Shown piece by piece: positions 17,959 through 42,048 of a stretch of DNA of 45,741 bases. This DNA is from Acidimicrobiales bacterium (lineage in GTDB: Bacteria > Actinomycetota > Acidimicrobiia > Acidimicrobiales > UBA8592): assembly GCA_011523005.1 (NCBI GenBank), contig WTHU01000151.1, positions 1 through 45,741 of the forward strand. The letters run 5' to 3'. Both the position numbers and the translations under genes were made by a program. The notes under the pieces are model-generated. The model made no database searches. It was not told the origin of the DNA and saw only the letters and a program-made list of their open reading frames with translations. Positions within the stretch are counted from its first letter, which is position 1. Each line of letters opens with the position of its first letter.

Positions 17959-18750
17959 TCATCGCTTTTGGCATGATTTGCAGAAAGTAGTCCCTCTCCC
18001 ATCAATCACCACACGTCCGAGTATCTCACCACACTTGACGCACGGCTCTCCATCCCTTCCATAGCATTCGAGATAAAACTGGTTGTTTCCTTGCTTCCCT
18101 TCAGCATTCACATAATCTCGCAACGTCGTCCCCCCATTCGCAACAGCCATAGTAAGGACATAACGGATACTCTCATGAAGAGCAGCCGTTTTAGCTTTTG
18201 TTAACTTCCTAACACCGGGATAAATACCTGCTCTGAAACACGCTTCATCAGCATAGATATTGCCAACCCCGGCAACAGGACGTTGGCTAAGAAGTTGCGT
18301 TTTTATCTTTCGGTTGCTTGCTTTCAAAGAAGCATAAAATTGGTCGGCTGTGAAATCATCTGAAAGCGGTTCAGGTCCAAGGCTCCCAAGAGTTCCCTCA
18401 TATTGGCCAGGTGAATAAATACGGATCCGGCCAAACCGACGAACGTCACGGTAGCCAAGAATCAAATCATTATCGAGTCTCCACCATGCTCTCAAATAGG
18501 GATCTAACAAGTCATCACACGGAAGCAATTGCCCAGTCATCCCTAAATGGACAACCATTTCAGTTCCGTTATCAAGATGAAAAAGAAGGAACTTCCCGCG
18601 TCTTGAGATAGCTTCAAAACCTAGTCCGGTGATCTCTCTTGCCGGAGTAAATTTGCCAGATGGGTGACTATCAGCTTCAGAAACATAACGACCCGTAAGT
18701 AAAGGTTCAAGTTGACGACGAATAGATTCAACCTCGGGAAGTTCTGGCAT
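17959..18750 (-). CDS. mutM: Formamidopyrimidine-DNA glycosylase
   Basis: MPELPEVESIRRQLEPLL N-terminus and C-terminal zinc finger CVKCGEILGRVVIDGRGTTFCKSCQ. Confidence 0.96.
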   Translation of the reverse strand: MPELPEVESIRRQLEPLLTGRYVSEADSHPSGKFTPAREITGLGFEAISRRGKFLLFHLDNGTEMVVHLGMTGQLLPCDDLLDPYLRAWWRLDNDLILGYRDVRRFGRIRIYSPGQYEGTLGSLGPEPLSDDFTADQFYASLKASNRKIKTQLLSQRPVAGVGNIYADEACFRAGIYPGVRKLTKAKTAALHESIRYVLTMAVANGGTTLRDYVNAEGKQGNNQFYLECYGRDGEPCVKCGEILGRVVIDGRGTTFCKSCQKR

Positions 18751-22249: not shown

Positions 22250-22289
22250 TATGGTCTGGACCCTCCTTGAATCATTTGCGAATCGTTTC

Positions 22290-24710
22290 TCACCATCGCG
22301 GTAGCCCAACATCAAGGATGCGCCGATCAGTTTTTGAACTCACAAGATCACGTTTTGTAGGCTCAATCGGGAGATCTACAGGAACTGGATCTGCCTTCTT
22401 AGGGTCATCATCGGTAGCCATAACGGCAAGAAGCACATCTGGTCCGACAATACGAGCAAGCACCAAACTCTTTTCTTTTGTGAATCTAGTAACACGAATT
22501 CCGGTTCCTCCGCGACCCTTGGAGGAAAGTTCTTCGAACGGAGTGACCTTCGCTGACCCCGTGTCTGTCACAGTCACTACGGCGCCATCGCCAATTGCTG
22601 CACCGGCACCCACTATCTTTACGCCATCACGAATTTTCATGCCAAGAACACCAGCAGCGTTTCGCCCTTGGATACTAATGTTGTCAACGGGAGTTCGGAG
22701 CGCCTGAGCATCCGATGAGACGATCACAACGTCAATTCCATCTGGGCACGTGAAAGCCGCCGCCAATTTGTCATTCGGTTTCAGCTTGATCACTGGCTTA
22801 CCATTAGATGTTTCTTTCAGCTCTAGCGGCGATATGCGTTTGGCGACTCCGTTACTTGTCACCAGCACAACATTTTCCTCTCCCGGTGATACAACTGTGA
22901 GTATTTGCTCACCTTTTCCTAGTCCAAAAACTTTGGTGGCAGCTGCGCCTCGACTTCTCCCTTTGATCTCGCCAAGTTCTGATGATTTCACGGAAAACGC
23001 ACGTCCTTCAGAGGTTATAGCAAACACCAGACTATGGGTTGATCCGATTGTGGAAGCAAGCAAAACATCATGCTGCCCCGGTGTTGATCTTCGACCTCCC
23101 TCGATAGGGGCGCGACCCACACGACCAGATGTTGACAAGGTAATCAGGCACGGTTCATCAGGTACATCTTCGACATCTATTAAAGGAATATCGTCATGAA
23201 CGGGGATGTCTTTGAGGTCAACAATTTCCGTACGCCTTTCAACTCCATATATTTCAACGATCTCTTCAAGTTCTTTAAGAACGATTGTTCGTTGGCGTTG
23301 TTCAGAATCAAGAATTTTTTTGTATTCTTTTATGCGAGCAGTTAATTCTTCGCGTTCGTCTAGTATCTTCTGCATTTCTAACGCAGTTAATCTCCGAAGC
23401 TGCATATCGAGGATGTGGGTTGCCTGAATTTCAGATAGCTTCAATTCTTTACGAAGAGACGACTTCGCATCTTCAACATCTTTAGAGCCTTTGATGATGG
23501 CAACGACTTTATCAATGTTCTCTAAAGCAACAATCAGTCCCTTAACGATATGAAGTCGGTCCTGTGCTCGATCTAATCTAAATTGGGTTCTTCGAATAAC
23601 AACTGTTAATCGGTGATCGACATAATGCTTGCAAAGCTCGTAGATGCCCAGTGTTTCAGGAATTCCATTGACCAACACCACGTTATTAATCCCGAAACTT
23701 TCTTCAAGGGGGGTTTGTTTATAAAGTTCAGAGAGCACCGCTTCCGGATTAACGTTTGGCTTAAGCGTTATTAACAACCGCAGGCCTGATTTACGGTCAG
23801 ATAAGTTTTTAGCATCGGCTATTCCTACTAACTTCTCCGCAACAACCAACTCATTGATTTTCTTTACAACCTTTTCTGGGCCAACCATATAAGGAAGTTC
23901 TGTGACGACAATTCCTTGCCGGGTGCGTGTAAGTTTTTCAAACTCCACACGCGCTCTTATACGAAACGTGCCTCTACCTGTTTTATAGGCCTCCTTTAAA
24001 TCCTCGTCCACGATGATCCCTCCAGAAGGGAAATCTGGGCCAGGTAAGACTTTAAGGAGTTCATCCAGAGACGGCTTTGGACGCCTTTTCTTCATAACAA
24101 GGGAAATCGCCTCAAATACCTCACGTAAATTATGGGTAGGCATGTTCGTTGCCATTCCAACAGCTATACCGGTTGTTCCGTTTACCAGCAGATTTGGAAG
24201 TAAGCCAGGTAAATATAGTGGTTCCGTGCTCTCACCGTCATATGTTGGCCGGAAATCAACGGTCTCTTCCTCAATCTCACGAACCATTTCCATCGCAGCT
24301 TCAGTAAGGCGACACTCTGTGTAACGGGCTGCGGCTGGGGGATCATCAAGACTTCCAAAATTCCCGTGCGGGTCGACCAAAGTCACCATGCGAGCAAAGT
24401 CTTGTCCCAGCCGCACGAGAGCTTCGTATATAGCCATATCGCCATGCGGGTGATATTTACCCATGGTGTCACCGACAACACGGGCACATTTTCGATGAGG
24501 ACTTGCTGGCCGTAGCCCCATGCCAAGCATTGAATACAATATTCGTCGTTGGACTGGTTTCAAACCATCACGCACATCCGGAATCGCACGGGCGGTGATG
24601 ACGGATAAGGAATAGGCTAAAAAGGACTCCGACATTTCATCCGCAACCGGAACAGGGATCACTTCGCGAGCGAAATCTTTAGCAAATGAAAGTTTTTGTT
24701 GACGTGCCAT
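22290..24710 (-). CDS. parC: Type IIA DNA topoisomerase subunit A (ParC/GyrA-like)
   Basis: SLSVITARAIPDVRDGLKPVQRRILYSM, KCARVVGDTMGKYHPHGDMAIYEALVRL, AAARYTECRL; C-terminal beta-pinwheel repeats; no QRRGGKG-type GyrA-box found by eye. Confidence 0.88.
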   Translation of the reverse strand: MARQQKLSFAKDFAREVIPVPVADEMSESFLAYSLSVITARAIPDVRDGLKPVQRRILYSMLGMGLRPASPHRKCARVVGDTMGKYHPHGDMAIYEALVRLGQDFARMVTLVDPHGNFGSLDDPPAAARYTECRLTEAAMEMVREIEEETVDFRPTYDGESTEPLYLPGLLPNLLVNGTTGIAVGMATNMPTHNLREVFEAISLVMKKRRPKPSLDELLKVLPGPDFPSGGIIVDEDLKEAYKTGRGTFRIRARVEFEKLTRTRQGIVVTELPYMVGPEKVVKKINELVVAEKLVGIADAKNLSDRKSGLRLLITLKPNVNPEAVLSELYKQTPLEESFGINNVVLVNGIPETLGIYELCKHYVDHRLTVVIRRTQFRLDRAQDRLHIVKGLIVALENIDKVVAIIKGSKDVEDAKSSLRKELKLSEIQATHILDMQLRRLTALEMQKILDEREELTARIKEYKKILDSEQRQRTIVLKELEEIVEIYGVERRTEIVDLKDIPVHDDIPLIDVEDVPDEPCLITLSTSGRVGRAPIEGGRRSTPGQHDVLLASTIGSTHSLVFAITSEGRAFSVKSSELGEIKGRSRGAAATKVFGLGKGEQILTVVSPGEENVVLVTSNGVAKRISPLELKETSNGKPVIKLKPNDKLAAAFTCPDGIDVVIVSSDAQALRTPVDNISIQGRNAAGVLGMKIRDGVKIVGAGAAIGDGAVVTVTDTGSAKVTPFEELSSKGRGGTGIRVTRFTKEKSLVLARIVGPDVLLAVMATDDDPKKADPVPVDLPIEPTKRDLVSSKTDRRILDVGLPRW

Positions 24711-24861: not shown

Positions 24862-26250
24862 TCAACTCTCATTAATCTCAGTCGGATTCCAATAAGTCTG
24901 CTCTTTTTCATCGAGAAGAAGAGCATTGATCAATTCCACTCCCTGCATAAGAGAATGATCCTGATTAGAGACCTCGTATTTCCACCCACCAAAACGACCA
25001 CGCGAAAAGATATTGCGGGCTTCTAGCCGTGGAATGAAATCGTTAAGGATCTCGTCTCTTCCTAGGAAAGGTGTTGGATAGCCAAACGGCAAAAACTTCT
25101 TCCAGGTGCTCACCAATTTCGCGTCTTTAGGAAGAACTCCTATTGAATGTAGCCCTTGAATAGTGTCAGAAATCACGGTGGCGTGATTGACTTTTTTCCT
25201 TGCGGACTCAGAGATCTCACACATCAGTGACCATTGTCGCCCCGGTAACGGCACATTTTTAGGCGAGTAATTAGAAAACACTGTTGCCCGATAAAAAGGA
25301 ACATTATCCTCAGGAAAATACATCCAACATTTGGAACGTAGTTGCTCGGGTGTCGACCCTTCAATACCTAACCCAATCACATGGGTACTTGACCACTTAA
25401 ACTGCTCTAATTTGTCAAATGGGAAATCAGCTCTGATCTCGCCTCTCAATCTTTCTATAGTTACAGGCAAAGGCATTGTCGTTATCAACTTTCGGTACTT
25501 GAACTGTTGCCCATCTCCACAAGTGACGACTCGTTTCTCAGAATCAATTTCTTGAACCTCGGTATTGAGGACGATATTTTCCTCGGGCAGGCGACTCCCG
25601 AGCTCACTCCAAATCGTCCCTGTTCCACCTTCTGCAGGAAACCGAAAAACTGCGTTCGGACCCCAACTCTTGACATCGGCTTTTGCTTTAATGTTTCGTA
25701 GTACGTCACCTTTATTTATGGTTGCGACTCTTTCTCCCACCCAATTCGCAGCTAATTCGTGAGGAGGGTAGGCCCAAACTTTAAAGTTGTAAGGGCGCAT
25801 GAAAACATCTGCAATACCCTCTCCGAATGAAGCCACGATCCATTCATCAAAATCCATATCTGCCGTAGACGTCTCATTAGCTTTTAAACGATCTAATCCT
25901 GTAAGGCACTTTTCGAGATCTTTCTCAGGAAGTCTCCACATATTGTTTTGAAAAGGGTAAGGAATCCACTGATTCCGCATCCAAATCCAGGCCTCACGTT
26001 GATGTTCCAGCCAATTTTCTTTCAAGATGTCACTTAGAAGGTTATCGAAGTAGTCGTAATGCGAGAATAAAACATGCCCTCCTAAATCCCAAATAAATCC
26101 CTGCTCATCAACTACAGAAGATGCAAGCCCCCCAAGAGAACCTGATTTCTCAAGAAGAACCCAATCGCTTTGATTCAGCTCACATAACCGATGCGCAGCG
26201 CCTAATCCTGTCGGGCCACCTCCAATGATCACATACTCGGCGCTTTTCAT
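24862..26250 (-). CDS. NAD(P)/FAD-binding oxidoreductase, UDP-galactopyranose mutase/protoporphyrinogen oxidase-like
   Basis: YVIIGGGPTGLGAAHRLCELNQSDWVLLEKSGSLGGLASS dinucleotide motif; GGHVLFSHYDYFDNLL; REAWIWMRNQWIPYPFQNNMWRLP. Confidence 0.85.
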   Translation of the reverse strand: MKSAEYVIIGGGPTGLGAAHRLCELNQSDWVLLEKSGSLGGLASSVVDEQGFIWDLGGHVLFSHYDYFDNLLSDILKENWLEHQREAWIWMRNQWIPYPFQNNMWRLPEKDLEKCLTGLDRLKANETSTADMDFDEWIVASFGEGIADVFMRPYNFKVWAYPPHELAANWVGERVATINKGDVLRNIKAKADVKSWGPNAVFRFPAEGGTGTIWSELGSRLPEENIVLNTEVQEIDSEKRVVTCGDGQQFKYRKLITTMPLPVTIERLRGEIRADFPFDKLEQFKWSSTHVIGLGIEGSTPEQLRSKCWMYFPEDNVPFYRATVFSNYSPKNVPLPGRQWSLMCEISESARKKVNHATVISDTIQGLHSIGVLPKDAKLVSTWKKFLPFGYPTPFLGRDEILNDFIPRLEARNIFSRGRFGGWKYEVSNQDHSLMQGVELINALLLDEKEQTYWNPTEINES

Positions 26251-26960
26251 GGAAATACCTTAGATATCTTTATCAACTCCAACAAGGCTCGGCCCCCTTT
26301 ACGAACAGCACCAAGATTCGATAAGGAAGATTCACCAACTATTCGCTCGTTGAAAATAACAGGGCATTCTTCGACCTGATAATTCATTAAGGATAAAGCT
26401 CCTGATAGTGCAATATTTGGAGCAAACGTATCAGAGGGAATTTTTTCAAGGAGAATGGCAAGCGTTTCTGAGCGAATAAGTCTGAAAGGGATATTGACAT
26501 CACGAAGGTGGCACCGAAAAAGAACTTTTGTTGTGACTCTTGCAAAAAAAGTCACGAGCCGTCTGACAGTTGTTTGATCTCGGCCTTGACGCCATGCGAT
26601 AACTGCGTCTTGTCCCTGCCGTCTTGACCATAAAGCCGAAAATTGGTTTGGGCTAATTTCATTATCACTATCAGCCTGAAACACCCATTCAGCAATACCA
26701 ACGGCTCTTTTGTAACCAGCCAAAATCGTTGGCCCGTGCCCTTCGTTCTGTTTTATGATTAACTGAACATTCTGATTATCTCCATATCTTTCAACTATTG
26801 AAATAGTTGCGTCTGATGATCCATCATCGATAATAAGAATCTCATAATTTAGGTTTACTGAATCTAAAACATTAAGCCACTCATTGATGCATTCCCCTAT
26901 AAGTTTTTCCTCATTGAATACGGGAATAACGACAGCTACATCTTTAAGCAGCTTTGTCAT
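26247..26960 (-). CDS. Family 2 glycosyltransferase (DPM1/polyprenyl-phosphate glycosyltransferase-like)
   Basis: VAVVIPVFNEEKLIGECINEWL, YEILIIDDGSSDATISIVERYG, GHGPTILAGYKRAVGIAEWVFQADSDNEISP. Confidence 0.9.
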   Translation of the reverse strand: MTKLLKDVAVVIPVFNEEKLIGECINEWLNVLDSVNLNYEILIIDDGSSDATISIVERYGDNQNVQLIIKQNEGHGPTILAGYKRAVGIAEWVFQADSDNEISPNQFSALWSRRQGQDAVIAWRQGRDQTTVRRLVTFFARVTTKVLFRCHLRDVNIPFRLIRSETLAILLEKIPSDTFAPNIALSGALSLMNYQVEECPVIFNERIVGESSLSNLGAVRKGGRALLELIKISKVFP

Positions 26961-26962
26961 AG

Positions 26963-27973
26963 CTACCGTGAAGAAGGGCGTTTAGCGACTGAACAGCAAC
27001 CAGGTTGGCAGATCCAGGGCTCGCCAAATGCGACTAGAGGTGTCTGGTTGAGGATCTTTTCCTCAATAAGTTGTCCAAGCCCTGAGACAAAAGTGGGATG
27101 CACGCCTACGGTAGGGGTCCTAGTGACCTTCATGCCCAATGAACGGGCATGGTCCGCAGCTTCTGTATCCAAATCAAACATCACTTCCATGTGGTCAGAA
27201 ACAAACCCTATCGGAGCGATAATCACAGATTCCACTCCCTGTGCGGACAGAGAGTCAAGATGGTCGACAATATCTGGTTCTAGCCATGGAACCGTTGGTG
27301 GCCCGCTACGGCTCTGAAATACGAGATCCCATTCCATGTCGGGAGCCACAGCATCTACCAATTGAGAAGCGAAATCTCGTAGTTGCCATTGGTAGGGGTT
27401 CGTTTCCATCCAAGCTGACGGAATAGAGTGAGCAGTGAAAGCCAGATGAGTTTTTTGGATGGTGTCATTATCAATTTCTGAGATACTGCTTTTCAAACGC
27501 TGCACCATAGCCTCAAAGAAGCCAGGATGATTCCAGAAGAGACGAATCTTTTCTACAGAAAGGTCCTCAGTGTTCAACCCTTCTACGGCAAGATCAAGAT
27601 CTTCTTGATACTGTCTGCAGCCGGAATATGAACCGAACGCACTCGTCACTAGCGCTAAAACGTTTCGTTTCCCGTCGTTGTAGATATTTTGAAGAGCATC
27701 AGATATGTATGGATCCCAATTTCTGTTCCCAAAGTAGATAGGCAACTCAATATTGCGAGACTGAAGTTCTTCTTCCAAAGCAGCGATGAGGTCTCTATTT
27801 TGTTGATTGATTGGGCTGACTCCGCCAAATAACCCATACTGAGCTTGAACCTCCTCAAGGCGTTCCGCTGGGATATCTCTGCCGTTAGCTACGTTACGAA
27901 GGAACGGTTCCACATCCTCTGATGCTTCAGGACCGCCAAAGGACGTTAAGAGGATGCAGTCAAACTCTGTCAT
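26963..27973 (-). CDS. hemH: Ferrochelatase (protoporphyrin or coproporphyrin type)
   Basis: ILLTSFGGPEASEDVEPFLRNVANGRDIP; YGLFGGVSPIN; YFGNRNWDPYISDAL; FTAHSIPSAW; FQSRSGPPTVPWLEPDI; ISPIGFVSDHMEV-like IAPIGFVSDHMEVMFDLD. ATG at 27973 overlaps the upstream stop by ATGA. Confidence 0.94.
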   Translation of the reverse strand: MTEFDCILLTSFGGPEASEDVEPFLRNVANGRDIPAERLEEVQAQYGLFGGVSPINQQNRDLIAALEEELQSRNIELPIYFGNRNWDPYISDALQNIYNDGKRNVLALVTSAFGSYSGCRQYQEDLDLAVEGLNTEDLSVEKIRLFWNHPGFFEAMVQRLKSSISEIDNDTIQKTHLAFTAHSIPSAWMETNPYQWQLRDFASQLVDAVAPDMEWDLVFQSRSGPPTVPWLEPDIVDHLDSLSAQGVESVIIAPIGFVSDHMEVMFDLDTEAADHARSLGMKVTRTPTVGVHPTFVSGLGQLIEEKILNQTPLVAFGEPWICQPGCCSVAKRPSSR

Positions 27974-28773
27974 GTTCTCTTTTGGCAATTGGGGCAATGC
28001 CAAATTGATCGTCCAGCAAGTTTTGATATAACGATTTCGTCCGGACAGCGGCGGCAATCTAGCCCTGCTCTTTTATATGCATATAAAGAGTTATTCCGTT
28101 TTTTGTTTTTAGCTTTGATAGTGCCTTTGTCCTCGTCCTGAATTGTTACGATTCTGTTGAGTTTTTTGCCCCTTCGAAGTAGGTCAACAGTCCATTTCCA
28201 CAATTCTTCAGCTTGATAATCATGAATTTTGTTACATGGTGTTTCAGGGTGAATCCCGCAAAGAAACAGCAGTTCAGCACGGTAAACGTTCCCGATGCCA
28301 GCGAGTAGGTTTTGGTCTAACAAAGCAGCTCCGATAGGCTTTTTGGACTCTCCGAGTCTTTTTTTGAACTTGTTCATGCCTCGTAGGCCGACCCGTAATG
28401 GGTCTGGGCCAAGCTTATTAATGACGTCTTGGAGATCATCTTCGGTGATTAATGCGCATGTCTGTGGTCCAGTCAAATGCCAAGCTGAGCTTTCGTGAAC
28501 GAGACGCAATCTGATGGTATCTCTCGGAGGATCGTCTCTGTCCACCTTCCGGAATTTACCGATAAGGCCTAGGTGGACATGAAGGATATTACCGTTTTCC
28601 CAATGACAAAAGAGGTGCTTTCCCCATGCCTCAGACTTAATCATCTGAATACCGTTTAACAAGGCAGCACTTTCGGCGAACCGTCCTTGGGGGGACGTAG
28701 CTTCGACTCTTTTGCTGACGAAATCTTTCCGTAAGTCAGCAGCTAATCGGTGGATCGTGTGTCCTTCAGGCAC
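27970..28773 (-). CDS. Fpg/Nei family DNA glycosylase (endonuclease VIII/Nei2-like)
   Basis: From GTG at 28773: (M)PEGHTIHRLAADLRKDF with Pro at position 2; QNLLAGIGNVYRAELLFLCGIHP; C-terminal zinc finger CRRCPDEIVISKLAGRSIWHCPNCQ. Confidence 0.92.
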   Translation of the reverse strand: MPEGHTIHRLAADLRKDFVSKRVEATSPQGRFAESAALLNGIQMIKSEAWGKHLFCHWENGNILHVHLGLIGKFRKVDRDDPPRDTIRLRLVHESSAWHLTGPQTCALITEDDLQDVINKLGPDPLRVGLRGMNKFKKRLGESKKPIGAALLDQNLLAGIGNVYRAELLFLCGIHPETPCNKIHDYQAEELWKWTVDLLRRGKKLNRIVTIQDEDKGTIKAKNKKRNNSLYAYKRAGLDCRRCPDEIVISKLAGRSIWHCPNCQKRT

Positions 28774-28895
28774 AATCCGAACGGTAGCGTCTAACAACGA
28801 AACTTGCTACAGAAATCTTGAACTTCGGGACCTTTTACAATGCTTTCAAAGTGTTTTATCGCTTCACTAACTCTACTTGTGCAGTAAACTGACAG

Positions 28896-28931: not shown

Positions 28932-30866
28932 GTGAATTTTCTAACCGCTGTATTCATCTGCTCCATAGTATTGATTGGTTTCACGACAACATATTCAATC
29001 CAGAGTCGACTCTCTTTTGAAGAAAGAGTCATGTTTGGTGTTGTCTTGGGAGTGATTGAAGTATCCATTGTAGGTTTTCTTCTTTCGTGGGCTTTCTCCG
29101 TCAATCGGACAACTATTTTCATCTCTGTCGGAATCTTACTAAGCGTAAATTCTCTCATTGCCCTGAGACGTCGATCAGTTCTCGCCGCAGATTATGAAAG
29201 TCTGCTCATCCGTTGTAAGCGTAAATGGAATGACCCATTAAGCCCAAAAGTGCCGATCTTCCTCCTTGTCTCTAGCACCTTGCTAACGACGAGAATTATG
29301 CAAATTGCATATGACGGAACTGATAGCGGTGGCGTAGCGGTGTCCCACCTTTCTGTTTATGGTGACTGGTCAGCTCACCTTGCCTATGCTGCCTCATTTG
29401 CGTATAGCAATAATTTTCCTCCTGAATTACCAACTGCTGCCGGGGAGAGTTTCTCCTACCACTTCGGGGTTGATTGGTTCTCCGCCATGTTTGTTCCGTT
29501 GGGACTTGATCTCTTTTCCGCCATGCAAACATCAACCGTGCTTCTCGCCTCTGTCCTTCCTCCAATTCTCTTCTTCGGGTACAAAAGGTTTGTTACAAAT
29601 AACCGCGCGGCTGTATTCGCGCTCCTCATATTCCTGTTATCAGGAGGCACAGCAGCGTTCTTTAGATTCCTATTCCAAGACCTCCCTGAGGAGGGGCCAT
29701 CAATTCTCCTCAACTTGCCGAGAAGTTACGCATTCGACGGTTTTGACAGAAATTGGGTGGACAACGCAGTAACCGGATTCCTCTACCCCCAGCGCCCTAC
29801 CCTTGTCGGATTTTCAGCGCTAGTTATTGTGATTGTCCTACTTTGGGAGAATAGAAAACTAAAAATCACGAGTACGTACGTTTTCGCAGGAACTCTGGTA
29901 GGAGTCTTGCCAATCTTTCACATCTTTTCTTTCGGTGCGCTCCTTTTGCTGTCAACCTTTTGGGCGCTAACTACCATGAAAAGATACTGGTTGCGTTTCT
30001 TTGCCCCTGCGCTACTACTAGGGGTGCCGGTTTTAATATGGCAATGGCCAGATCGAGACGGCAGATCTTGGCATCAACTTTGGGTGTTAGGCAAATCCAC
30101 TTGGAACCTCCACGTCATTGATTTTTTGTGGTTCTGGTTACTCAATACCGGTCTAGTTATCCCAATCGCTGCTTTGGGGATAGTTCGCTCATCGCGCGAG
30201 ATCAAACGATTTGCAGTGCCTATTTTCGCGTTTCTGATAATTCCAAATATTGCAATCTGGCACTTCTGGATAGGGAATAATGCCAAATATGTCATACTGT
30301 TCCTGCTCCTTTCTGCGCCATTTATTGGAGAACAAATTGAGCTACTTCTCAAATCAGGGGGACTGCGGAAATCACTCTCAGTAGCGCTACTGATTTCTCT
30401 CATTTTCACAGGCTCTTTGGATGTATGGAGGGCAATGGATAAAACAACGGGTCCTTACCCTGTTGAGTACCTGACCGGTTCGGATGTGCTTCTAGGGGAA
30501 TGGATTCTCAAAAGCACTCCCACAGACGCCACATTCGCAAGCGCAAACACCAATGCACACCCTGTACGAGTCCTCACCGGGAGAAGCGTCGTCTCGGGCT
30601 CACCGGGGCGATTGAACGACCTTGGTGTCGATTGGTACTCCAGAGATCAAGACTTACGATCTATCTATCAATTACAAGAGGGTTATGGCGACCTTCTCGC
30701 ACGGTATCAGGTTACGCACCTCGTTCTTGGACCATTAGAAAAGCTTCACTATCGACTAACACCAGATTATGACCGACGGATAGAGGAGGAATTAATTCTT
30801 CACGGAGCGGAACTAGTCTACGATCGCGCAAACTATCAGGTATACGATGTGCAGGACTTGCAATGA
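28932..30866 (+). CDS. Polytopic membrane protein, GT-C-like / distant DUF2298 (YYY-type) relative
   Basis: 644 aa, about 12+ hydrophobic segments; GDWSAHLAYAASFAYSNNFPPELPTAAGESFSYHFGVDWFSAMFVPLG resembles the PPYDPWFAGGVMNYYYFGWFLLA segment in the 1597-aa protein. Confidence 0.75.
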   Translation: MNFLTAVFICSIVLIGFTTTYSIQSRLSFEERVMFGVVLGVIEVSIVGFLLSWAFSVNRTTIFISVGILLSVNSLIALRRRSVLAADYESLLIRCKRKWNDPLSPKVPIFLLVSSTLLTTRIMQIAYDGTDSGGVAVSHLSVYGDWSAHLAYAASFAYSNNFPPELPTAAGESFSYHFGVDWFSAMFVPLGLDLFSAMQTSTVLLASVLPPILFFGYKRFVTNNRAAVFALLIFLLSGGTAAFFRFLFQDLPEEGPSILLNLPRSYAFDGFDRNWVDNAVTGFLYPQRPTLVGFSALVIVIVLLWENRKLKITSTYVFAGTLVGVLPIFHIFSFGALLLLSTFWALTTMKRYWLRFFAPALLLGVPVLIWQWPDRDGRSWHQLWVLGKSTWNLHVIDFLWFWLLNTGLVIPIAALGIVRSSREIKRFAVPIFAFLIIPNIAIWHFWIGNNAKYVILFLLLSAPFIGEQIELLLKSGGLRKSLSVALLISLIFTGSLDVWRAMDKTTGPYPVEYLTGSDVLLGEWILKSTPTDATFASANTNAHPVRVLTGRSVVSGSPGRLNDLGVDWYSRDQDLRSIYQLQEGYGDLLARYQVTHLVLGPLEKLHYRLTPDYDRRIEEELILHGAELVYDRANYQVYDVQDLQ

Positions 30867-32842
30867 TAATTCAACGCTTCACTCCACTTAAAGCAGCCAC
30901 TAAGCAGGTAAAGAGACTTATCTCACCATTGAGCATCATCGTGATTTTAGCAATCATCGCTTTAACGTTGCGACTGTTATTTCTAGGGGAAAGACCATTC
31001 CACCATGATGAAAGTCTTGATGCATGGTTCTCACTTCGATTCCTCAACGGAGAATACAACGGCTACGACCCCGTTTACCATGGACCGTTGCGGTTCTATC
31101 TCACTGCTGCAATATTCTGGCTATTTGGAATCACAGACATCACAGCACGACTACTAGCAGCAATAGCTGGCTTCATATTAGTTTTTGCCCCACTACTTTG
31201 GAGAAAACACATAGGAATCGTAGGAACCATAGGGGCGATGACACTAATCTCTATCAGTCCAACGATGGTTTATTTCTCGCGCTTTGGAAGAGAGGATTCG
31301 CTGTTTCTTTTACTCACAACAAGTTTCGTAATTCTTTTCATCGCATTCTTAATAAATCCTCAAGGATGGCATCCCACAGCGCTCTTCACAACAATTATCC
31401 TCAGCATGGCGATAAAAGAATCCATTCTTCTTGTGATCTTCCTCTTCGGTGTCCTCACCCTCTTCCTCTCCCTCCAAGAAAGCCTTTCACGCATCAAAAA
31501 AGGAACACTAGAACGATTTCCGTTACTAAGCTCGCTACTCATTCCAGGATTCGGACTGCTCTCACTAACACTCACATTGATCTGGGTAGGGGACAGCGGA
31601 GGCAATGGGACGATAATCAAAATAGCTTGTTACTGCGGATTTTTGCTACTGGTAATCATAGGAATGAGGGTTATCCCGAGTACCGAAAAACATCATCAAC
31701 CAGAAATTTCCATAATAAAGTCACTGCGAGAACCGAACCTAAAGCAATGGAGTATCTCACTCGCTATCGCCGGCATCTCATTCGTCGCATTATTCTCACA
31801 GTTCTTTACCAACTTTTCTGGACCCAATACGACAAGTGCACCGCATAGTGCGCTTCGTAATGGCCTCACCGCCGGATTTCAATATTGGTCAAACCAGCAA
31901 AGCACAGGAGCAAGAGGAGACTCACGCTGGCATTACTACCTCTCAATGTTAATCGCATACGAATGGGTCATACTCTTCATTGCTCTATTTGGGGTCTGGA
32001 AAATTATTCAACAACCCACCCTCTTCAACCAAACGATCATGTGGTGGGCTCTCGGTGGACTCATTGTCTACTCGTGGGCAGCAGAACGCATGCCCTGGCT
32101 CATCATCCATATTCTTTTGCCCACCATTATCATCGCAGGACTAGGCATTCAGCACATATGGGAAACAGTCTCCACGCAAAAGAAAAGAAAACAAATCGCA
32201 TGTTCCGCAGCATTAGTTCTCTTAATTTTCGTAGCTTTTCAATCCATTAAAACCAACTTTGACGACCCCGGAGAACCTAACGAGCTGCTGGTTCAAGCCG
32301 GACAAGCAACACCAGAAGTTGTTGCATGGACCAATCAGATCTTCGACCTTAATAGAGTTTTCTATGCAGAAAACGAAGAGCACTTATCAGTCCAAATAGA
32401 TAGCGACATCTTCTGGCCATACGGGTGGTACCTTCGAGATTTCCCCACATCCACATACGCAAAAATTACTGTCGGTAACACGGCAACACTGTCAGCATCT
32501 CCAGACATTATTTTTCTACCCCAATGGGACCGAGACCTAGCGCAAAACTTAGTAGATGAATACGCTATTTTTCCCTACAACCATCGATGGTGGTGGGTTC
32601 CTCAATACGACGCTGGGCTTTCAAATCTCGCGGATACTCAAACCTTGCTAACGAACTGGGGGAAATGGATGTGGAACCGGACGCCTTGGCAAAACATTCA
32701 AGGCAACCCAAACGGATGCCCGTCAGCGCTGGCCGGACATGTCTACATCAAAGAATCAGTTTTATCGCTAGCACAGAAAACGGAAGTTTGGAATAGTCCA
32801 CACCTTACTCCATCACTAATTCAAGGAGGCAGCCTCTGTTAA
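30863..32842 (+). CDS. TIGR03663 family protein (flippase activity-associated Agl23-like), GT-C fold
   Basis: 659 aa polytopic: LRLLFLGERPFHHDESLDAWFSLRFLNGEYNGYDPVYHGPLRFYLTAAIFWLFG with the family's DE and HGP motifs; ATGA overlap with the upstream gene. Confidence 0.85.
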   Translation: MIIQRFTPLKAATKQVKRLISPLSIIVILAIIALTLRLLFLGERPFHHDESLDAWFSLRFLNGEYNGYDPVYHGPLRFYLTAAIFWLFGITDITARLLAAIAGFILVFAPLLWRKHIGIVGTIGAMTLISISPTMVYFSRFGREDSLFLLLTTSFVILFIAFLINPQGWHPTALFTTIILSMAIKESILLVIFLFGVLTLFLSLQESLSRIKKGTLERFPLLSSLLIPGFGLLSLTLTLIWVGDSGGNGTIIKIACYCGFLLLVIIGMRVIPSTEKHHQPEISIIKSLREPNLKQWSISLAIAGISFVALFSQFFTNFSGPNTTSAPHSALRNGLTAGFQYWSNQQSTGARGDSRWHYYLSMLIAYEWVILFIALFGVWKIIQQPTLFNQTIMWWALGGLIVYSWAAERMPWLIIHILLPTIIIAGLGIQHIWETVSTQKKRKQIACSAALVLLIFVAFQSIKTNFDDPGEPNELLVQAGQATPEVVAWTNQIFDLNRVFYAENEEHLSVQIDSDIFWPYGWYLRDFPTSTYAKITVGNTATLSASPDIIFLPQWDRDLAQNLVDEYAIFPYNHRWWWVPQYDAGLSNLADTQTLLTNWGKWMWNRTPWQNIQGNPNGCPSALAGHVYIKESVLSLAQKTEVWNSPHLTPSLIQGGSLC

Positions 32843-35800
32843 CTCCCAAAGAATTAATTCATCCACACGGTAAATACTGTTTAAATCGTCACTAAATACA
32901 CGGCGAATACCAGGATGTTCAGCTAAATATTCCAATGCATCTGACGAAACAAAGCGACGCTCCTGCACCCCTACAATTATGTAACTAACACCATATGAAA
33001 GAAGGAAATCAGTCATGAACTCATGATCCTTCAGCGTATAAAAGTTCTGAACCTCGAATTTTCGTTGGCTGACCATGTCCTGGTAACCGCTTCTTTGCTG
33101 ACGCTGATGCGAAGACCAACCCAAAACAGTGGGAAGTCCCGTATGTACCGCAATTCTAGAATTCCAATCATAACTAAGACCTGACCATTCAACGATTGTC
33201 GGACTTCCGGAAACAGATGACCTGAGCCAGTTGATAAGTTCTAAATCCTCTCCTATAGGAACTATGGAAGGTTCTGCATCTAATCCATTATCGTAACGAG
33301 CAAATATAGGCTGAGTAGAGAGGTAACTGAGTCCGTTTAAAGTTTTTAAATCTGTTGAAAAACGAGCATCTAACCTTGGTCCAATTGAAGAAAGTGGATA
33401 AACAAGCACAATTATCAGGCCCATAATGAGGCTAAATGACCAAAGGCTCGCAAAAGATAAACGCTGAGAAGTTACCTGATTCTTATCTTCAGCCCTGATA
33501 CTTTGGCAAATAACCTGAATCGATAGTGCAGATGCCAAAGCTAGTAACGTCCAGCCTTGCAACCAGAATTTGAAAACAGTATTCATTCTCTCGACATCAT
33601 TACTTACAACAAATATTTCCGGACCCGCCAAAATCGCAAATCCCAATGCCCACAAACAAAGAGCACCGATCTTTTGAATAGACCTAGTACCCAGCATCTC
33701 CAAAATAAGAAGGTGCACCACAACTGCCGCCCCAAAGGCGGATAAGGCAAGTGCCCACCCAATCAATAGACCCAAAGAGAATGTAGCCAATGCGTAAATA
33801 ACAAATAGCCAGAAATTCAATACGTCACATTTACTGTGTGAATGTCGAGCATGAAAAATACTCTTCACGGATCTTCCACTGAGTCTTTGGTGTACCTCAT
33901 GACAAATAAACGCCAAAGCTATAAAGAAAAATACACCCCAATGCGATAAGAAATCGCTAAAGGGCGATACCCAACTTGTTCGCCTCAAACTTAGATCAAA
34001 TGTTTCGCGAGCCTCATCGTACGGAATTACAAAGATCATAAAGGTTAGGAGGGAGACAATTAAATGCCGAACGAAAATGAGTAACCGTAACCGAAGCTCA
34101 GCGGAGGCAAAGATACTTACTCCAGTCGTTAAAGCAAAGATGGCGGAAATTGCAGCTACCCACCCCAAACCTGAAACGAATGCGCCCAGGGCTACAGAGG
34201 CACTTGCAACAAGCCAAAGAATAGATTCACTAAGACGATTATTGTGAGTAGAAGAGAGCCCTTTCACTTTAAAAATAGTGCTGCCAAACACAAATGCAAT
34301 TACTGCGACCAAACATAGCGTTGGCATATCCCACGTATTTGTCATTTTAGAGATCGCGATCGAGAGACCAAGCATGGCAGCAAGGACTACCGAATGAGTG
34401 AATCTACCTTCCTGGCAACTAAAAACATAGGCCATAGATAAAGCAATAAGTAACGTAAAGATCGGTATCCCCATCAGGTGAGGATGTAGATCCCCAAAGA
34501 GGAAGGTAAAGAAAGGGAACTCAGTGATATCAAAGTTCCCGGTATTTACACGACTAGGACCCCACCAATCATACGAAGGGAGGGGAGTTCCTTGAAGCCA
34601 AGCGACAAATCCGCCAAGGAATTCCAAGCAATCTCCCACCACAGGCCAGCCAGATAACAAATTCCATTTGTTTATCTCTCTAAATTGGTCGTGGTAACGG
34701 CGAACCCCATCAAAAGTTCCAGCAATAGCAAAAAGAAAAGACGCCAAGAGCCCTGTTCTGATAGCACCACTAAGGACGGATGGTTTAAATGAAGTTTTCT
34801 TTTTGGTGTAAGACACCAAGTTCATGACAATAGTAAAGACACCAAGCACAGCTAAAGAAATGTAAGTTGCTAATCCGAACTGGAAAACGTATTCAGGTCG
34901 TAACCCCAAAGCGACCATTGGAACAGCCAACAAAAACCATCCAAAGTAGTAATAATTCATCACACCACCTGCGAACCAAGGATCGTAAGGTGGAAGATTC
35001 TCACTCCTTCCTATTGCAGTGAGGTAACCCAGCTCCATGGGCTTTTCACCCCCACGGAACGCATCCCACATGTCAGGATTCAAGAATCTAAGTGCAAGAA
35101 CAGCGAAAAAAACTGTTACAAAAATAATCTCAACGGTTACCCATGTTCTTCTTTCATGCAGAAAGAAATCCTTGACCATAGAACGATTACGAAATAACTG
35201 CCACAAACAAGTAGTTAAGAGAATTAACAACGACACAACAACGGCGTATCTTGAAAAATTGATCACATCCCACGAAACCAGAACCCATGTAATCGTCCCT
35301 GTCGCAAGAAACCCGAAAACTTTACTCAACCCATAACCACGGTCAGGCAACGACTGACAGAGCTGAAGAACAGATGGCAAGACAAGTAACGCTGAGATTT
35401 GTAACCAAAGAAACCACCATAGCCACCCAAATGAACCAGCAAAGATGTTCGATGAGAACCGGTCGTCGAATGTATCACCGCTTTGCATAGTGCGATATTG
35501 AGACGGTTGCAAGAGTAACGCATTCGAGGCACCTTCTCTCGGGAGCAAATTTGGAGCATTAGCCGCTGCAAATGGATTCAGAATTCGACGTGCTTTCTCA
35601 ATATCCCAATCATCTGACTTCTCCCAAATCGTAACAGTAGGGTGATCGTATACAGAGAACGTTTCTTCAGCCCCCCATGAGGGAAAATCGAAACCCAATA
35701 GTGAAGGCTTATTCTCAAATGAAACAATCTTGGTAAAGCCCAACTGTTCATTGAACAATGCTTCGTAATAAGCAACCGTTGAGGGGTATTCAGCAGGCAT

Positions 35801-37609
35801 TCGAGGAATAGAGCCATAGAGCCTATTGCTCGATTCGATAATATAATCCACCTCATCAAGCTGCGCTAGGAGAACTTCCGATTTCGCTAAACCACTTCCT
35901 GAGTCGATGGACGAATCGGAACGAAAAAGATCAAACTCAACAAACGCATATCTCCTTTCGTCAAGGTCCGCCGAGCGCAGTGGGACGGCATCATCCCAAA
36001 CCTGACGAGAAATCGAAGCCCCAGCAGGAATATTCTCAGTCACCCAAGATGACGCAACCAATCTAGGGTGAGTCCTTTGGTAAACACCATTGACAAAACC
36101 GGCACCCCAAATCAAAACTAATCCCATGGTTAATCCGGAGACTAGTGCAACACAACCCCACACAATCTTGTCACGTTGTTGACCCTTCAATCGGCGGACC
36201 GCCCCGACCCACAATCGATGAAAACCGAATCCTCCGAAAGCAATAAGCATCGGATAAACAGGCAGATAGTAGCGGTTTAAGGGATTGAATTGCGTTGTTA
36301 CAAGTGCCCCCAAAGCAATGATAAACGATATAGGTATCAGTAAAGAAAAGTCTTTTTTACGTAAAATCTCTCTGGAAACAAAAGCAATCCCAATCAAGAC
36401 ACACATACTTATTCCAGGTCCCATACCTGACCAGAACATTGAATTCAAAGGGGCAAATAGGGGAAGGCGATCTACCCACTGAATAACCCACGGAAAATCT
36501 CCACCGTTGTTCACATCCTGTAAATACCTGAGGTCAGTAACAAAATCTGGGTGCAACTTAAGCGAGTTCGAAAAAGCGTATGGATGGAAAACTCGAAAAG
36601 TACCTATTGCCATCAATCCAGAAACCGAGACCAGGACCACAAAGAAAGAAAATGCCTCTGATCGCCTTGCGCTACTAGTTCCCTTATCCCAGTTATTGCT
36701 GAAAGCCGTTAATGCAAAAGCGAAAACTGGGGCAATAAAGACAATGAAACCCGTGAATTTTGATGCGCCAGCTAATCCGCAAAAGAATCCGATACTGAGC
36801 GCTCGAATAATTTCACGTCGTTTGGGGGGATCACCGTTCCCTAGTGTTTGATAGGACTTATAAAATAGAACCGATAATAGAACTGCGGCCGTTCCAAAGA
36901 ACGTTACCCACGGCTCCGCTCCATGGAAATGACTGTATTGAATATGGAGTGGAGCAAACGACAAAAGGATTGCTGCGATAAAACCTGCTGCTCTAGAAAA
37001 CAAGGCCCGTCCCAAAAGATAGGTAAGTAGCACAGTGCCGGTATCAATTAAAGCTGCTAGAAGCCTGCCAATATTTTGGACCTCAAATCCGCTATTGAAG
37101 GTTTTGCCTACGTACATCTCTCCATCTGCAGATAACTGGTCCTCTTTTAAGTTAATTCCAACAGAGTCAATGGCCGATACAACCCAATTGGAAAGAAAGA
37201 AATCTGCCTCTAGGAATTCTGCTACTCCTTTTGCCGCAAACAAGGGGAGAGTGCCATATACCCATGAACTCTGGTAACGATATGGATTTAATTCTGAATC
37301 CTCAGAATTAAAGTATGTCACCGGATCCTCCCATTGAATATCCGAAGTCACAATGCTCCAGTAGCGTTCGTCGGGATGTTGGTGGGTTCCTTCATCCCAG
37401 TCCAAATTCCACACGCGCAAAAGGAAAGCAACCAAAAGCAAAATCACAAGGCCAGCTCGTTGAAGGGAACTTCTCTTCTTCATCTTGAGGGACATGGAAT
37501 CAGCCATGTTAAACATTAGATCGTTGCGCCAAAAGAAATGAATTTTGTCATAATTAGGATAATCTAACGCTCCAAAATAATCTTCATAAAGAGAAACGAA
37601 CTCATACAA
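32816..37609 (-). CDS. Very large membrane protein: N-terminal GT39-like GT-C region plus C-terminal DUF2298/Chlor_Arch_YYY region
   Basis: 1597 aa; N-terminus LRVWNLDWDEGTHQHPDERYW (GT-C acidic motif); middle LPPYDPWFAGGVMNYYYFGWFLLAVPMVALGL with YYYxG; C-terminal soluble tail. True start may be 37507 or 37483. Confidence 0.85.
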   Translation of the reverse strand: MYEFVSLYEDYFGALDYPNYDKIHFFWRNDLMFNMADSMSLKMKKRSSLQRAGLVILLLVAFLLRVWNLDWDEGTHQHPDERYWSIVTSDIQWEDPVTYFNSEDSELNPYRYQSSWVYGTLPLFAAKGVAEFLEADFFLSNWVVSAIDSVGINLKEDQLSADGEMYVGKTFNSGFEVQNIGRLLAALIDTGTVLLTYLLGRALFSRAAGFIAAILLSFAPLHIQYSHFHGAEPWVTFFGTAAVLLSVLFYKSYQTLGNGDPPKRREIIRALSIGFFCGLAGASKFTGFIVFIAPVFAFALTAFSNNWDKGTSSARRSEAFSFFVVLVSVSGLMAIGTFRVFHPYAFSNSLKLHPDFVTDLRYLQDVNNGGDFPWVIQWVDRLPLFAPLNSMFWSGMGPGISMCVLIGIAFVSREILRKKDFSLLIPISFIIALGALVTTQFNPLNRYYLPVYPMLIAFGGFGFHRLWVGAVRRLKGQQRDKIVWGCVALVSGLTMGLVLIWGAGFVNGVYQRTHPRLVASSWVTENIPAGASISRQVWDDAVPLRSADLDERRYAFVEFDLFRSDSSIDSGSGLAKSEVLLAQLDEVDYIIESSNRLYGSIPRMPAEYPSTVAYYEALFNEQLGFTKIVSFENKPSLLGFDFPSWGAEETFSVYDHPTVTIWEKSDDWDIEKARRILNPFAAANAPNLLPREGASNALLLQPSQYRTMQSGDTFDDRFSSNIFAGSFGWLWWFLWLQISALLVLPSVLQLCQSLPDRGYGLSKVFGFLATGTITWVLVSWDVINFSRYAVVVSLLILLTTCLWQLFRNRSMVKDFFLHERRTWVTVEIIFVTVFFAVLALRFLNPDMWDAFRGGEKPMELGYLTAIGRSENLPPYDPWFAGGVMNYYYFGWFLLAVPMVALGLRPEYVFQFGLATYISLAVLGVFTIVMNLVSYTKKKTSFKPSVLSGAIRTGLLASFLFAIAGTFDGVRRYHDQFREINKWNLLSGWPVVGDCLEFLGGFVAWLQGTPLPSYDWWGPSRVNTGNFDITEFPFFTFLFGDLHPHLMGIPIFTLLIALSMAYVFSCQEGRFTHSVVLAAMLGLSIAISKMTNTWDMPTLCLVAVIAFVFGSTIFKVKGLSSTHNNRLSESILWLVASASVALGAFVSGLGWVAAISAIFALTTGVSIFASAELRLRLLIFVRHLIVSLLTFMIFVIPYDEARETFDLSLRRTSWVSPFSDFLSHWGVFFFIALAFICHEVHQRLSGRSVKSIFHARHSHSKCDVLNFWLFVIYALATFSLGLLIGWALALSAFGAAVVVHLLILEMLGTRSIQKIGALCLWALGFAILAGPEIFVVSNDVERMNTVFKFWLQGWTLLALASALSIQVICQSIRAEDKNQVTSQRLSFASLWSFSLIMGLIIVLVYPLSSIGPRLDARFSTDLKTLNGLSYLSTQPIFARYDNGLDAEPSIVPIGEDLELINWLRSSVSGSPTIVEWSGLSYDWNSRIAVHTGLPTVLGWSSHQRQQRSGYQDMVSQRKFEVQNFYTLKDHEFMTDFLLSYGVSYIIVGVQERRFVSSDALEYLAEHPGIRRVFSDDLNSIYRVDELILWELTEAASLN

Positions 37610-40188: not shown

Positions 40189-40992
40189 CTACGTACTGTC
40201 AGCCGTAATGCGTGTCCGCAAAGCAACACTATCAAACCAAGAAATTAGACGAACACCAAGGTAGTGGGCGACTCCAAGGACAACGACCCCTCCAAGGGCA
40301 TCTATCCAGTAATGATTCGCAGTAACCACGATCGCAAATAATGTTAACGGCGGATAGGACGCTATTGCGAAACGTCCGAATTTGGTAGTTATATGCTTCC
40401 GAATCGCAAGCCAACTCCAGAGAGCCCATGCAAAGTGCAGACTTGGCATAGCAGCATACTGGTTTGAGAGACTTTCCATTAATCCTGAATCAAAGCTCCA
40501 CAGACCACCATATTCTGCCATTGTGTCGATGTACGGGCTATCAATACATGCTCCCACCTCACGGCAATTACCAAGTAACCGTGGAGGCATCAGAGGAAAG
40601 AGGGCAAAGCCTATTAAGGCTAAACCAGTAGTTAGAAGCCCAATAGTCCGCCATTTTCGATACTCATCACTAGCTCGTAAAAACAGATAAATCAGGACGC
40701 CAAGCGTCACTACAAAATGTAAAGTTCCGTAGAAAATATTCCAGAAGCGCAAAAACCATACCCAACTATCGAACCAACTTTGTAGAGTTGGTTCGAAATA
40801 CAGACCAAAGAAACGCTCAGTTTCGATCATGTAATCCGCATTACGGTAAGCAGTATCTGAGGTCACTGATGCAGACCCAAACTGATTCCGCACCCATGAG
40901 TAACATGAATAGCAGATAGCTATAAGAAGTAATTCCCGTACCCATACCCATTTCCTTGATGAGTACCTGGTTTCAACAACGTCACTTCTCAT
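40189..40992 (-). CDS. PAP2 superfamily phosphatase/phosphotransferase
   Basis: PLMPPRLLG, YAAMPSLHFAWALWSW, ANHYWIDALGGVVV motifs in a polytopic membrane protein. Confidence 0.9.
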   Translation of the reverse strand: MRSDVVETRYSSRKWVWVRELLLIAICYSCYSWVRNQFGSASVTSDTAYRNADYMIETERFFGLYFEPTLQSWFDSWVWFLRFWNIFYGTLHFVVTLGVLIYLFLRASDEYRKWRTIGLLTTGLALIGFALFPLMPPRLLGNCREVGACIDSPYIDTMAEYGGLWSFDSGLMESLSNQYAAMPSLHFAWALWSWLAIRKHITTKFGRFAIASYPPLTLFAIVVTANHYWIDALGGVVVLGVAHYLGVRLISWFDSVALRTRITADST

Positions 40993-41004
40993 TATGACCT
41001 TAAA

Positions 41005-42048
41005 CTATGTTTCGCTCCGAGCGGGATCAGCTCCATTGGTTCCTTTTCGTCCACCAAAAATAAGGAGAGGGAAACCTATTAGACTCCCAAGAAGCGTTAA
41101 CGCATAGATGGATAGTCCTAGGGCAAGTGCTTGTTCAGAGGGAACATTTATGCCTGAAAGGAAAACAACAAGCGTTCCTTCTCTAACCCCTAATCCCCCT
41201 ATGCCAAGAGGAAGCACTTGAATAATAAGAACAGCTGGAATAAATGCCATAAGTGCTGTTAACCCAACCTGATCAATGCCGAGTGCTTCTACAGCGCAAC
41301 CAGCAGCTAAAAGAAGCATAAACTGGTAAGCGAATGCAGAGAAGATTACTTCTCTAGCTGCTTTTGGATGTTGCCTCAGGCGATCAATTCCCAAATGGAT
41401 AGCATTCGCAAAACGTAAAACCCCTTGCCGGTTGCGCAAGCCCTCGCCAATGCGGTCATTGCCTAGCAACAGTAGAACAAGCCCTAAACCTACCAGTGTT
41501 ATAAAACCTACTACTAACGGAATTCTAGTTGAGTTGCCCAAGCCAGTTAAGCCGGGGTTTATAGCGAATCCAATAAACGTTATCACCGGTAAAACCAGCC
41601 ACCCGCTTAACCGTTCAAAGACGACCGAGGTGAAGCTAATAGGGCCGTCATCCGTATCCTTTGTTAATCGACTCACTCTAACGACATCACCACCAACTGT
41701 CGTTGGAAGAAAATTAGAGACGAATTGCCCAGACATATAATGACTAAATAGTCTCCCAAGTGGTTGGCGAACGCCCAAAGCTATTAAAACCCTTTGCCAG
41801 CGAACTGCTCCAAGAATAAAACCAGCCAACGTGAACACAAAAGCCCCGATGCTCCAAACAGCAGTTTCACTATTCCAATCAGGAAGTTCATCCCAGTCAA
41901 TATCATCCATTGACACGACAACAACGACTAGCAAGGCAACGCTCAAGCCAATACGAAGTGGTACCGTAACGTACTTGCTCCTCCACCATTGCGACTTCCG
42001 ATTTGCAACGCTCGCAGTTGTTTCAAAGCTCATCTTAAATTGACCCAC
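41005..42048 (-). CDS. Lysylphosphatidylglycerol synthase TM region/UPF0104 flippase-like protein
   Basis: ALGVRQPLGRLFSHYMSGQFVSNFLPTTVGGDVVRVSRL...FERLSGWLVL...PLGIGGLGVREGTLVVFLSG. Confidence 0.88.
   Translation of the reverse strand: MGQFKMSFETTASVANRKSQWWRSKYVTVPLRIGLSVALLVVVVVSMDDIDWDELPDWNSETAVWSIGAFVFTLAGFILGAVRWQRVLIALGVRQPLGRLFSHYMSGQFVSNFLPTTVGGDVVRVSRLTKDTDDGPISFTSVVFERLSGWLVLPVITFIGFAINPGLTGLGNSTRIPLVVGFITLVGLGLVLLLLGNDRIGEGLRNRQGVLRFANAIHLGIDRLRQHPKAAREVIFSAFAYQFMLLLAAGCAVEALGIDQVGLTALMAFIPAVLIIQVLPLGIGGLGVREGTLVVFLSGINVPSEQALALGLSIYALTLLGSLIGFPLLIFGGRKGTNGADPARSET

Follow-up and report, generated by a model that had tools for sequence, protein, structure and literature searches.

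Positions 1 to 45,741 of contig WTHU01000151.1 from an Acidimicrobiales bacterium (hereafter the window, the whole 45,741-nucleotide stretch analysed) carry three large genes for polytopic membrane proteins side by side: ORF1, ORF2 (Agl23) and ORF3 (Table 1). These open reading frames (ORFs) lie exactly where an earlier note, made from the letters of this DNA, had placed them, and its guess of a probable actinobacterium was right: the host is a marine actinobacterium of the class Acidimicrobiia (Actinomycetota). The ORF1 and Agl23 genes share a 4-bp overlap. About 2 kb from ORF1, beyond hemH and a Nei-like gene, lie genes for a family 2 glycosyltransferase (GT2) and a UDP-galactopyranose mutase (UGM). 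Profile comparisons indicate that ORF1 and Agl23 form a split couple, and ORF3 a fused couple, of the same two module types, and we consider the locus probably a GT-C glycosylation cassette.

Table 1. Genes of the proposed cassette and two further candidate lipid-handling genes of the window.
Feature	Position	Strand	Length (aa)	Description
ORF1	28932-30866	+	644	Polytopic protein without a family name, related to YYY/DUF2298; GT-C fold predicted; D145 in GDWSAHL a candidate acid; YHFG at 176-179
ORF2 (Agl23)	30863-32842	+	659	TIGR03663 'flippase activity-associated protein Agl23'; GT-C fold predicted; HHDES, YHGPLR and GRED motifs
ORF3	32816-37609	-	1597 (as ORF)	PMT-type GT-C half (~35-700) fused to TIGR03662/DUF2298 YYY half (~730-1582)
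GT2	26247-26960	-	237	ArnC/GtrB/DPM1-like; candidate polyprenyl-phosphate hexose synthase; PF00535
UGM, eukaryote-type	24862-26250	-	462	4-bp overlap with GT2
PF03706 LPG_synthase_TM/flippase-like protein	41005-42048	-		PF03706 E 6.8e-36; TIGR00374 40.8 bits (cut-off 43.2)
PAP2_3 phosphatase-like protein	40189-40992	-		PF14378 E 5.5e-43

Agl23 scores 274.4 bits against TIGR03663 (E 1.7e-81; cut-off 126.25), the family in which the earlier note had put it on the strength of the motifs HHDES (residues 47-51) and YHGPLR (residues 72-77). The DE dipeptide, the HGP tripeptide and the invariant arginines near the N terminus that characterize the family are all present. D49 is kept in 38/38 relatives and E50 and E144-D145 in 37/38; more broadly, D49-E50, H73-G74-P75, R77, R96 and R140 are each kept in 37-38 of the 38. 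Because the named motifs are invariant or nearly so, their presence is not due to chance, and Agl23 is a true TIGR03663 member by score and by motif.

The C-terminal half of ORF3 is likewise a true member of TIGR03662, as the note had proposed from NYYYFG (residues 885-890, with the YYYxG motif at Y886-Y887-Y888-F-G890): it scores 447.5 bits over residues 730-1582 (E 1.1e-133; cut-off 300.25) and 295 bits against DUF2298 (PF10060). A 46-bit match to the PMT family PF02366 is confined to the N-terminal half, and PF13231 matches both Agl23 and ORF3 weakly. D80-E81, E232, E855 and E859 are invariant in 10/10 ORF3 sequences. Relatives align from Met35 and not from the TTG at 37609, so the true start is likely to be 37507 (1563 aa), with an ordinary spacer then separating it from the divergent NfuA-like gene at 37619. 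The ORF3 homologue is broken by in-frame stops or frameshifts at two related loci, L084 (G014 C22) and L138, reflecting either decay or assembly error. Both families are rare within the phylum: among 398 sampled genomes, TIGR03663 exceeds its cut-off in 2 and TIGR03662 in 1, the window genome being counted in both.

ORF1 reaches the cut-off of no Pfam or NCBIfam family, and in the window it has no TIGR03662 match at all; matches to that model appear in 5/42 of its relatives (best E 6.7e-5), all below cut-off. By score ORF1 is thus not a TIGR03662 member, and the comparisons that follow point to a distant homologue only. We aligned profiles of 42 ORF1 relatives and 18 ORF3 relatives with hhalign, taking three unrelated neighbour families as controls. 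ORF1 matched the YYY half of ORF3 at 97.8% probability (E 1.2e-12; unrelated controls <1%) and Agl23 matched the PMT half at 95.4% (E 2e-8), with all remaining combinations, controls included, at <=22.7%. An earlier, shallower comparison had returned the ORF1-YYY relation (96.1%, E 3.5e-9) and missed that between Agl23 and the PMT half. In the alignment, ORF1 'DWSAHLAY...YHFG' stands opposite YYY 'EKPMELGY...YYYFG', and within the ORF1 family D145 is kept in 41/42 relatives and H149 in 42/42. Compared directly, ORF1 and Agl23 show no sequence homology (0.6%), so what they share would be a fold class and not a family. With ORF1 resembling the YYY half and Agl23 the PMT half, ORF3 has the look of this two-gene couple joined in a single chain, and the locus, read from these profiles, comprises one split (ORF1 + Agl23) and one fused (ORF3) YYY/PMT couple. 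PMT1-PMT2 and EmbA-EmbB are known examples of heterodimers among GT-C enzymes and make a paired arrangement plausible. A weak FetB/UPF0014 match to ORF1 (E 4e-4, residues 9-83) was judged uninformative, as were DUF6798 matches in 18 ORF1 relatives (best 1.5e-6), two of which, examined in detail, fell below the 26.9-bit cut-off.

The two genes of the split couple also travel together. A scan of genomes that used the Agl23 alignment gave 52 loci, the closest 92% and 90% identical, mostly in Acidimicrobiia, Acidimicrobiales, Acidimicrobiaceae and Candidatus Microthrix metagenome-assembled genomes, with a few in other Actinomycetota. Across a set of 61 related genomes, ORF1 and Agl23 occur together in 16, Agl23 alone in 2 and ORF1 alone in 0 (Fisher p 7.5e-13; here and below, the tests carry no correction for phylogeny and ignore kinship). 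They therefore agree in 59/61 genomes, and both exceptions (G004 and G015) are contig ends; outside the genus they are found together in 4/4 cases (p 9e-6). Where present they are nearly always adjacent, and synteny holds in the genus and the family. TIGR03662 is also found in 16/18 Agl23 genomes (p 1.2e-11), bearing out the note's statement that the two families co-occur, often as neighbours; all the computational checks that the note had proposed thereby came out in its favour. The two without it are G006, a contig end, and G054, a 98% complete genome that has ORF1 and in which the absence is real; with G018, another contig end, these are the exceptions to an agreement of 58/61. All three proteins are absent from 119 other genomes of the class, save one very weak TIGR03662 match (G108, E 8e-4). 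At many loci, among them L117-L130, L132, L133, L137, L142 and L146, ORF1-Agl23 has no YYY protein nearby, so the split couple can stand without the fused protein; at L131 a second Agl23 copy has no ORF1 beside it. In G054 an ABC transporter pair follows Agl23, and nothing supported the idea that it takes the place of ORF3. One genome bin, G017, holds two whole-cassette copies, L086 (C4) and L087 (C49), with ORF1 49% and 57% identical to that of the window, which could be a true duplication or a mixed bin.

To place the modules structurally, we built AlphaFold2 models from alignments of relatives and compared them with the PDB using Foldseek (E <= 0.001). The models of ORF1 (predicted local distance difference test, pLDDT, 86.6; predicted template modelling score, pTM, 0.90) and Agl23 (pLDDT 80.6, pTM 0.87) both match GT-C structures with probability 1.00 and E values down to 1e-8. 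Every match of ORF1 is a GT-C enzyme or an oligosaccharyltransferase-containing complex (DPY19, STT3, AglB, PglB, AftA); those of Agl23 are AglB, STT3, ArnT (TM-score 0.59 on the target), PMT4 and ALG9. A PDB search by sequence with ORF1, Agl23 and ORF3 returned nothing meaningful. The models thus support a GT-C fold class for ORF1 and Agl23, and PF02366 places the N-terminal half of ORF3 (ORF3-N) in GT-C. Conserved acids occur in all four modules. For ORF1 and Agl23 the model helices locate them in the first extracytoplasmic loop, and those of ORF3 would occupy the same position.

The candidate for a sugar comes from the UGM beside GT2, a pointer that the earlier note had missed, as it had the YYY kinship of ORF1. 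The product of 24862-26250 is annotated merely as an amine oxidase/PRK07208 (with PRK07208 below cut-off) and receives no curated UGM name in NCBIfam or Pfam. Its similarity to Trypanosoma cruzi UGM (4dsg) nevertheless spans residues 5-460 (456 residues, full length; E 1.1e-143), with a weak match to bacterial UGM (1i8t, E 8.9e-5). The active-site segments, GGHV and others, with the GGH loop, the W/N, the two arginines and the tyrosine set, are conserved relative to the Aspergillus fumigatus and T. cruzi enzymes and in the distant copies at L134, L149 and L150. Judged by sequence, the 'amine oxidase' is clearly a eukaryote-type UGM, and on this match we dropped the ideas of a polyprenyl-carrier reductase or protoporphyrinogen oxidase. 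The GT2 finds ArnC as its best PDB sequence match (1.1e-15), followed by GtrB (sll0501; 3.8e-11) and dolichyl-phosphate-mannose synthase (1.1e-7), with generic GT2s between; it has no C-terminal membrane helices.

GT2 and UGM are adjacent in the window and at four distant, rearranged loci, where they lie beside Agl23 and the PMT-YYY protein: L134 and L138 (Microthrixaceae), L149 (Actinomycetes bacterium) and L150 (Acidimicrobiales), with ORF1 also present at the first three. The note had pictured a DPM1-like GT2 as the next-door gene; this holds at the four rearranged loci, where it sits inside the cassette, and not in the window, where it is no direct neighbour. Ten genomes were checked for UGM. 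Three of them, cassette genomes without the eukaryote-type enzyme, carry a full-length bacterial-type match (G036 319, G020 301 and G054 139 bits; cut-off 303.75), and no bacterial-type match was found in G000, G002, G007, G017 and G019. As three relatives have a UGM and lack the cassette, the link between the two is strong at the level of the locus and not exclusive.

Taken together, these observations are best explained by extracytoplasmic, polyprenyl-phosphate-sugar-dependent glycosylation carried out by paired GT-C modules, a model to which we assign a probability of about 0.6. Each couple would consist of a YYY-type module and a DE-type (PMT/Agl23-like) module, supplied by the split, translationally coupled ORF1 and Agl23, which may form a heterodimer, and by the single chain of ORF3. 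In the cytoplasm, UGM would convert UDP-galactopyranose (UDP-Galp) to UDP-galactofuranose (UDP-Galf), and the DPM1/ArnC-like GT2 would load a hexose, plausibly Galf, onto polyprenyl phosphate. The lipid-linked sugar would then cross the membrane via some flippase, and ORF1/Agl23 and ORF3 would transfer the sugar at the outer face to a glycolipid, a cell-wall glycan or a surface protein. The putative catalytic acids, in the first extracytoplasmic loop, are D49-E50 in Agl23, D80-E81 in ORF3-N, D145 in ORF1 and E855/E859 in the C-terminal half of ORF3 (ORF3-C). For Galf as the transferred sugar we consider the odds about even. The polyprenyl-linked glycosylation that the earlier note suggested is retained, and the flipping that it offered alongside is the less likely option on the evidence of the fold.

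Several points weigh against this model. Bacterial UGM is common; three relatives that lack the cassette (G034, G038 and G049) have the enzyme as well, and in the group of G054, which has the split couple only, it is not at the locus. Instead of synthesizing a polyprenyl-phosphate sugar, the GT2 might act as a cytosolic transferase. Against solved GT-C enzymes the models reach moderate TM-scores (<=0.59), which back the fold class, not the exact reaction, and a GT-C fold for ORF3-C is suggested by homology to ORF1 rather than by a model of its own. Among the annotated genes of the window there is no dedicated flippase (GtrA- or Wzx-like), the PF03706 protein being a candidate. Finally, purified Agl23 of Haloarcula hispanica is reported to translocate M5GN2-PP-Dol (PMC11182771).

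The distribution of UGM bears most directly on a reading in which the GT-C modules are real and the sugar is not Galf: UGM and GT2 would build a cytosolic galactan or glycolipid from UDP-Galf, and the couples would use another polyprenyl-phosphate sugar, for example a hexopyranose. Its absence from the locus in the G054 group and its presence in three relatives without the cassette would fit, as would the tie of H. hispanica Agl23 to Glc- or Gal-P-Dol and not to Galf (PMC11182771). The recurrence of the UGM/GT2 pair beside Agl23 and PMT-YYY in four rearranged loci as well as in the window speaks the other way, together with the prenyl-phosphate-sugar synthases among the best GT2 matches and the bacterial-type UGM match in three checked genomes that have no eukaryote-type copy. 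We regard this reading as rather unlikely.

More doubtful still is the proposal that Agl23 is a polyprenyl-phosphate-hexose flippase with the YYY proteins as its partners or as transporter subunits, sugar transfer occurring elsewhere. The NCBI name of TIGR03663, 'flippase activity-associated protein Agl23', suggests as much, no other protein of the cassette is assigned as a flippase, and H. hispanica Agl23 complements yeast rft1-delta as well as showing the liposome activity above (PMC11182771). The flippase label rests, however, on one line of work, and what the same paper concludes about Rft1 itself has been disputed: work published in 2024 reports Rft1 to be dispensable for M5-DLO scrambling in reconstituted endoplasmic reticulum vesicles (PMC11365447), which is why we treat flipping as a rival and not as settled. 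No flippase or transporter of the MurJ, Wzx or Rft1 type is among the PDB matches of the Agl23 model at E <= 0.001, which are to GT-C glycosyltransferases only, nor is there one for ORF1. Agl23 also keeps, almost invariant, both of the acidic motif pairs expected of a catalyst, which argues against a pure flippase. That the genes merely inherited a housekeeping neighbourhood and have independent roles is very improbable: ordinary, syntenic genes do make up much of the surrounding block (gyrBA, hemH, dxs, tldD/pmbA), but ORF1 and Agl23 stay paired in families with different flanks, are jointly absent from the 119 other genomes of the class, and recur with the same partners in other orders and contexts at L134, L138, L149 and L150.

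The proposed glycosylation cassette shares parts with several known systems and departs from each. Like H. hispanica Agl23, ORF2 belongs to TIGR03663 by score and motifs and co-occurs with TIGR03662; it differs in being bacterial, translationally coupled to a YYY-like ORF1 and linked to UGM/GT2, and its predicted fold lends no support to the flippase label. ORF3-C is a regular TIGR03662/DUF2298 member by score and YYYxG motif, whereas ORF3 as a whole adds an N-terminal PMT-type GT-C half, occurs in Acidimicrobiia and has as its neighbour ORF1, a divergent relative of one domain that escapes every model. Multi-component transmembrane glycosylation combines a GT2 prenyl-phosphate-sugar synthase, a flippase and a GT-C transferase (Mann and Whitfield, as described in PMC10821137). 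The cassette similarly has an ArnC/GtrB/DPM1-like GT2, a candidate for such a synthase, and predicted GT-C transferases; it differs in its several paired GT-C modules and its UGM, and in that no GtrA- or Wzx-type flippase was identified. With mycobacterial AftA and Emb, which use decaprenyl-phosphate-arabinofuranose, it shares a furanose donor, here a proposed one, and a structural match of the ORF1 model (AftA, E 6.6e-5; Emb weakly); no match was found at the sequence level, and here the sugar would be Galf, supplied by GT2 and UGM. The UGM itself has full-length similarity to the T. cruzi and A. fumigatus enzymes, with conserved active-site segments; unlike them it belongs to an actinobacterium and has no curated UGM name.

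Elsewhere in the window, the PF03706 and PAP2_3 genes are both syntenic among relatives. The former is a speculative candidate for flipping the carrier and is not specific to the cassette; the latter, on synteny, might speculatively recycle the prenyl carrier. A 1771-aa predicted surface protein (2422-7737, + strand) matches nothing in Pfam or NCBIfam and is a possible target of glycosylation; it has a membrane segment at its N terminus, stretches of the 'LDNTAS' type that recur, and a segment, 'VWVDFNDDGLRT', that resembles SdrD. Many relatives have a transglycosylase gene (PF06737, Rpf-like) immediately upstream of ORF1 (for example, L082:349-1257 and L093:5136-6044); the window has none at that site, the distance from the Nei-like gene to ORF1 being only 134 bp. 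That gene (27970-28797, - strand) is one of two for Fpg/Nei-family DNA glycosylases within 11 kb, the other lying at 17959-18750 (- strand). Adjoining GyrB/ParE-like and GyrA/ParC-like genes (20216-24710, - strand) may code for either gyrase or topoisomerase IV: the GyrB-like protein reaches no curated cut-off, and the only model that the GyrA-like protein passes is a generic one for the topoisomerase subfamily. In a 783-aa CoA-transferase-family protein (7740-10091, - strand) the strong match spans the C-terminal half and another stretch matches too, which probably reflects duplication of the domain in tandem. Scans of the window for tRNAs and Rfam families gave no matches.

TIGR03662 and TIGR03663 are reported to travel together and are common to Archaea and Chloroflexi, the haloarchaeon Haloferax volcanii being one species that has both, and Acidimicrobiia can now be added as carriers of both. 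Our literature searches turned up no paper that gives DUF2298 or TIGR03662 a function. A split ORF1/Agl23 couple beside a fused PMT-YYY protein offers a simple reason for the co-occurrence of the families; the GT-C fold would give the reaction class and the UGM/GT2 link a candidate sugar. Each of these can be tested, so that two protein families whose function was unclear gain a testable role. A more far-reaching reading, which we consider less likely than not, is that the YYY (TIGR03662/DUF2298) and ORF1 families are a new GT-C class whose members work only in couples with Agl23/PMT-type modules, as heterodimers or as fusions, the couples of Acidimicrobiia being polyprenyl-phosphate-galactofuranose-dependent. 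If true, it would account for the long-noted company of the two families and make Agl23 an enzyme and not a flippase. Should Agl23 really be a GT-C enzyme, its use as flippase evidence in the debate over which proteins move dolichol-linked sugars would become more complicated.

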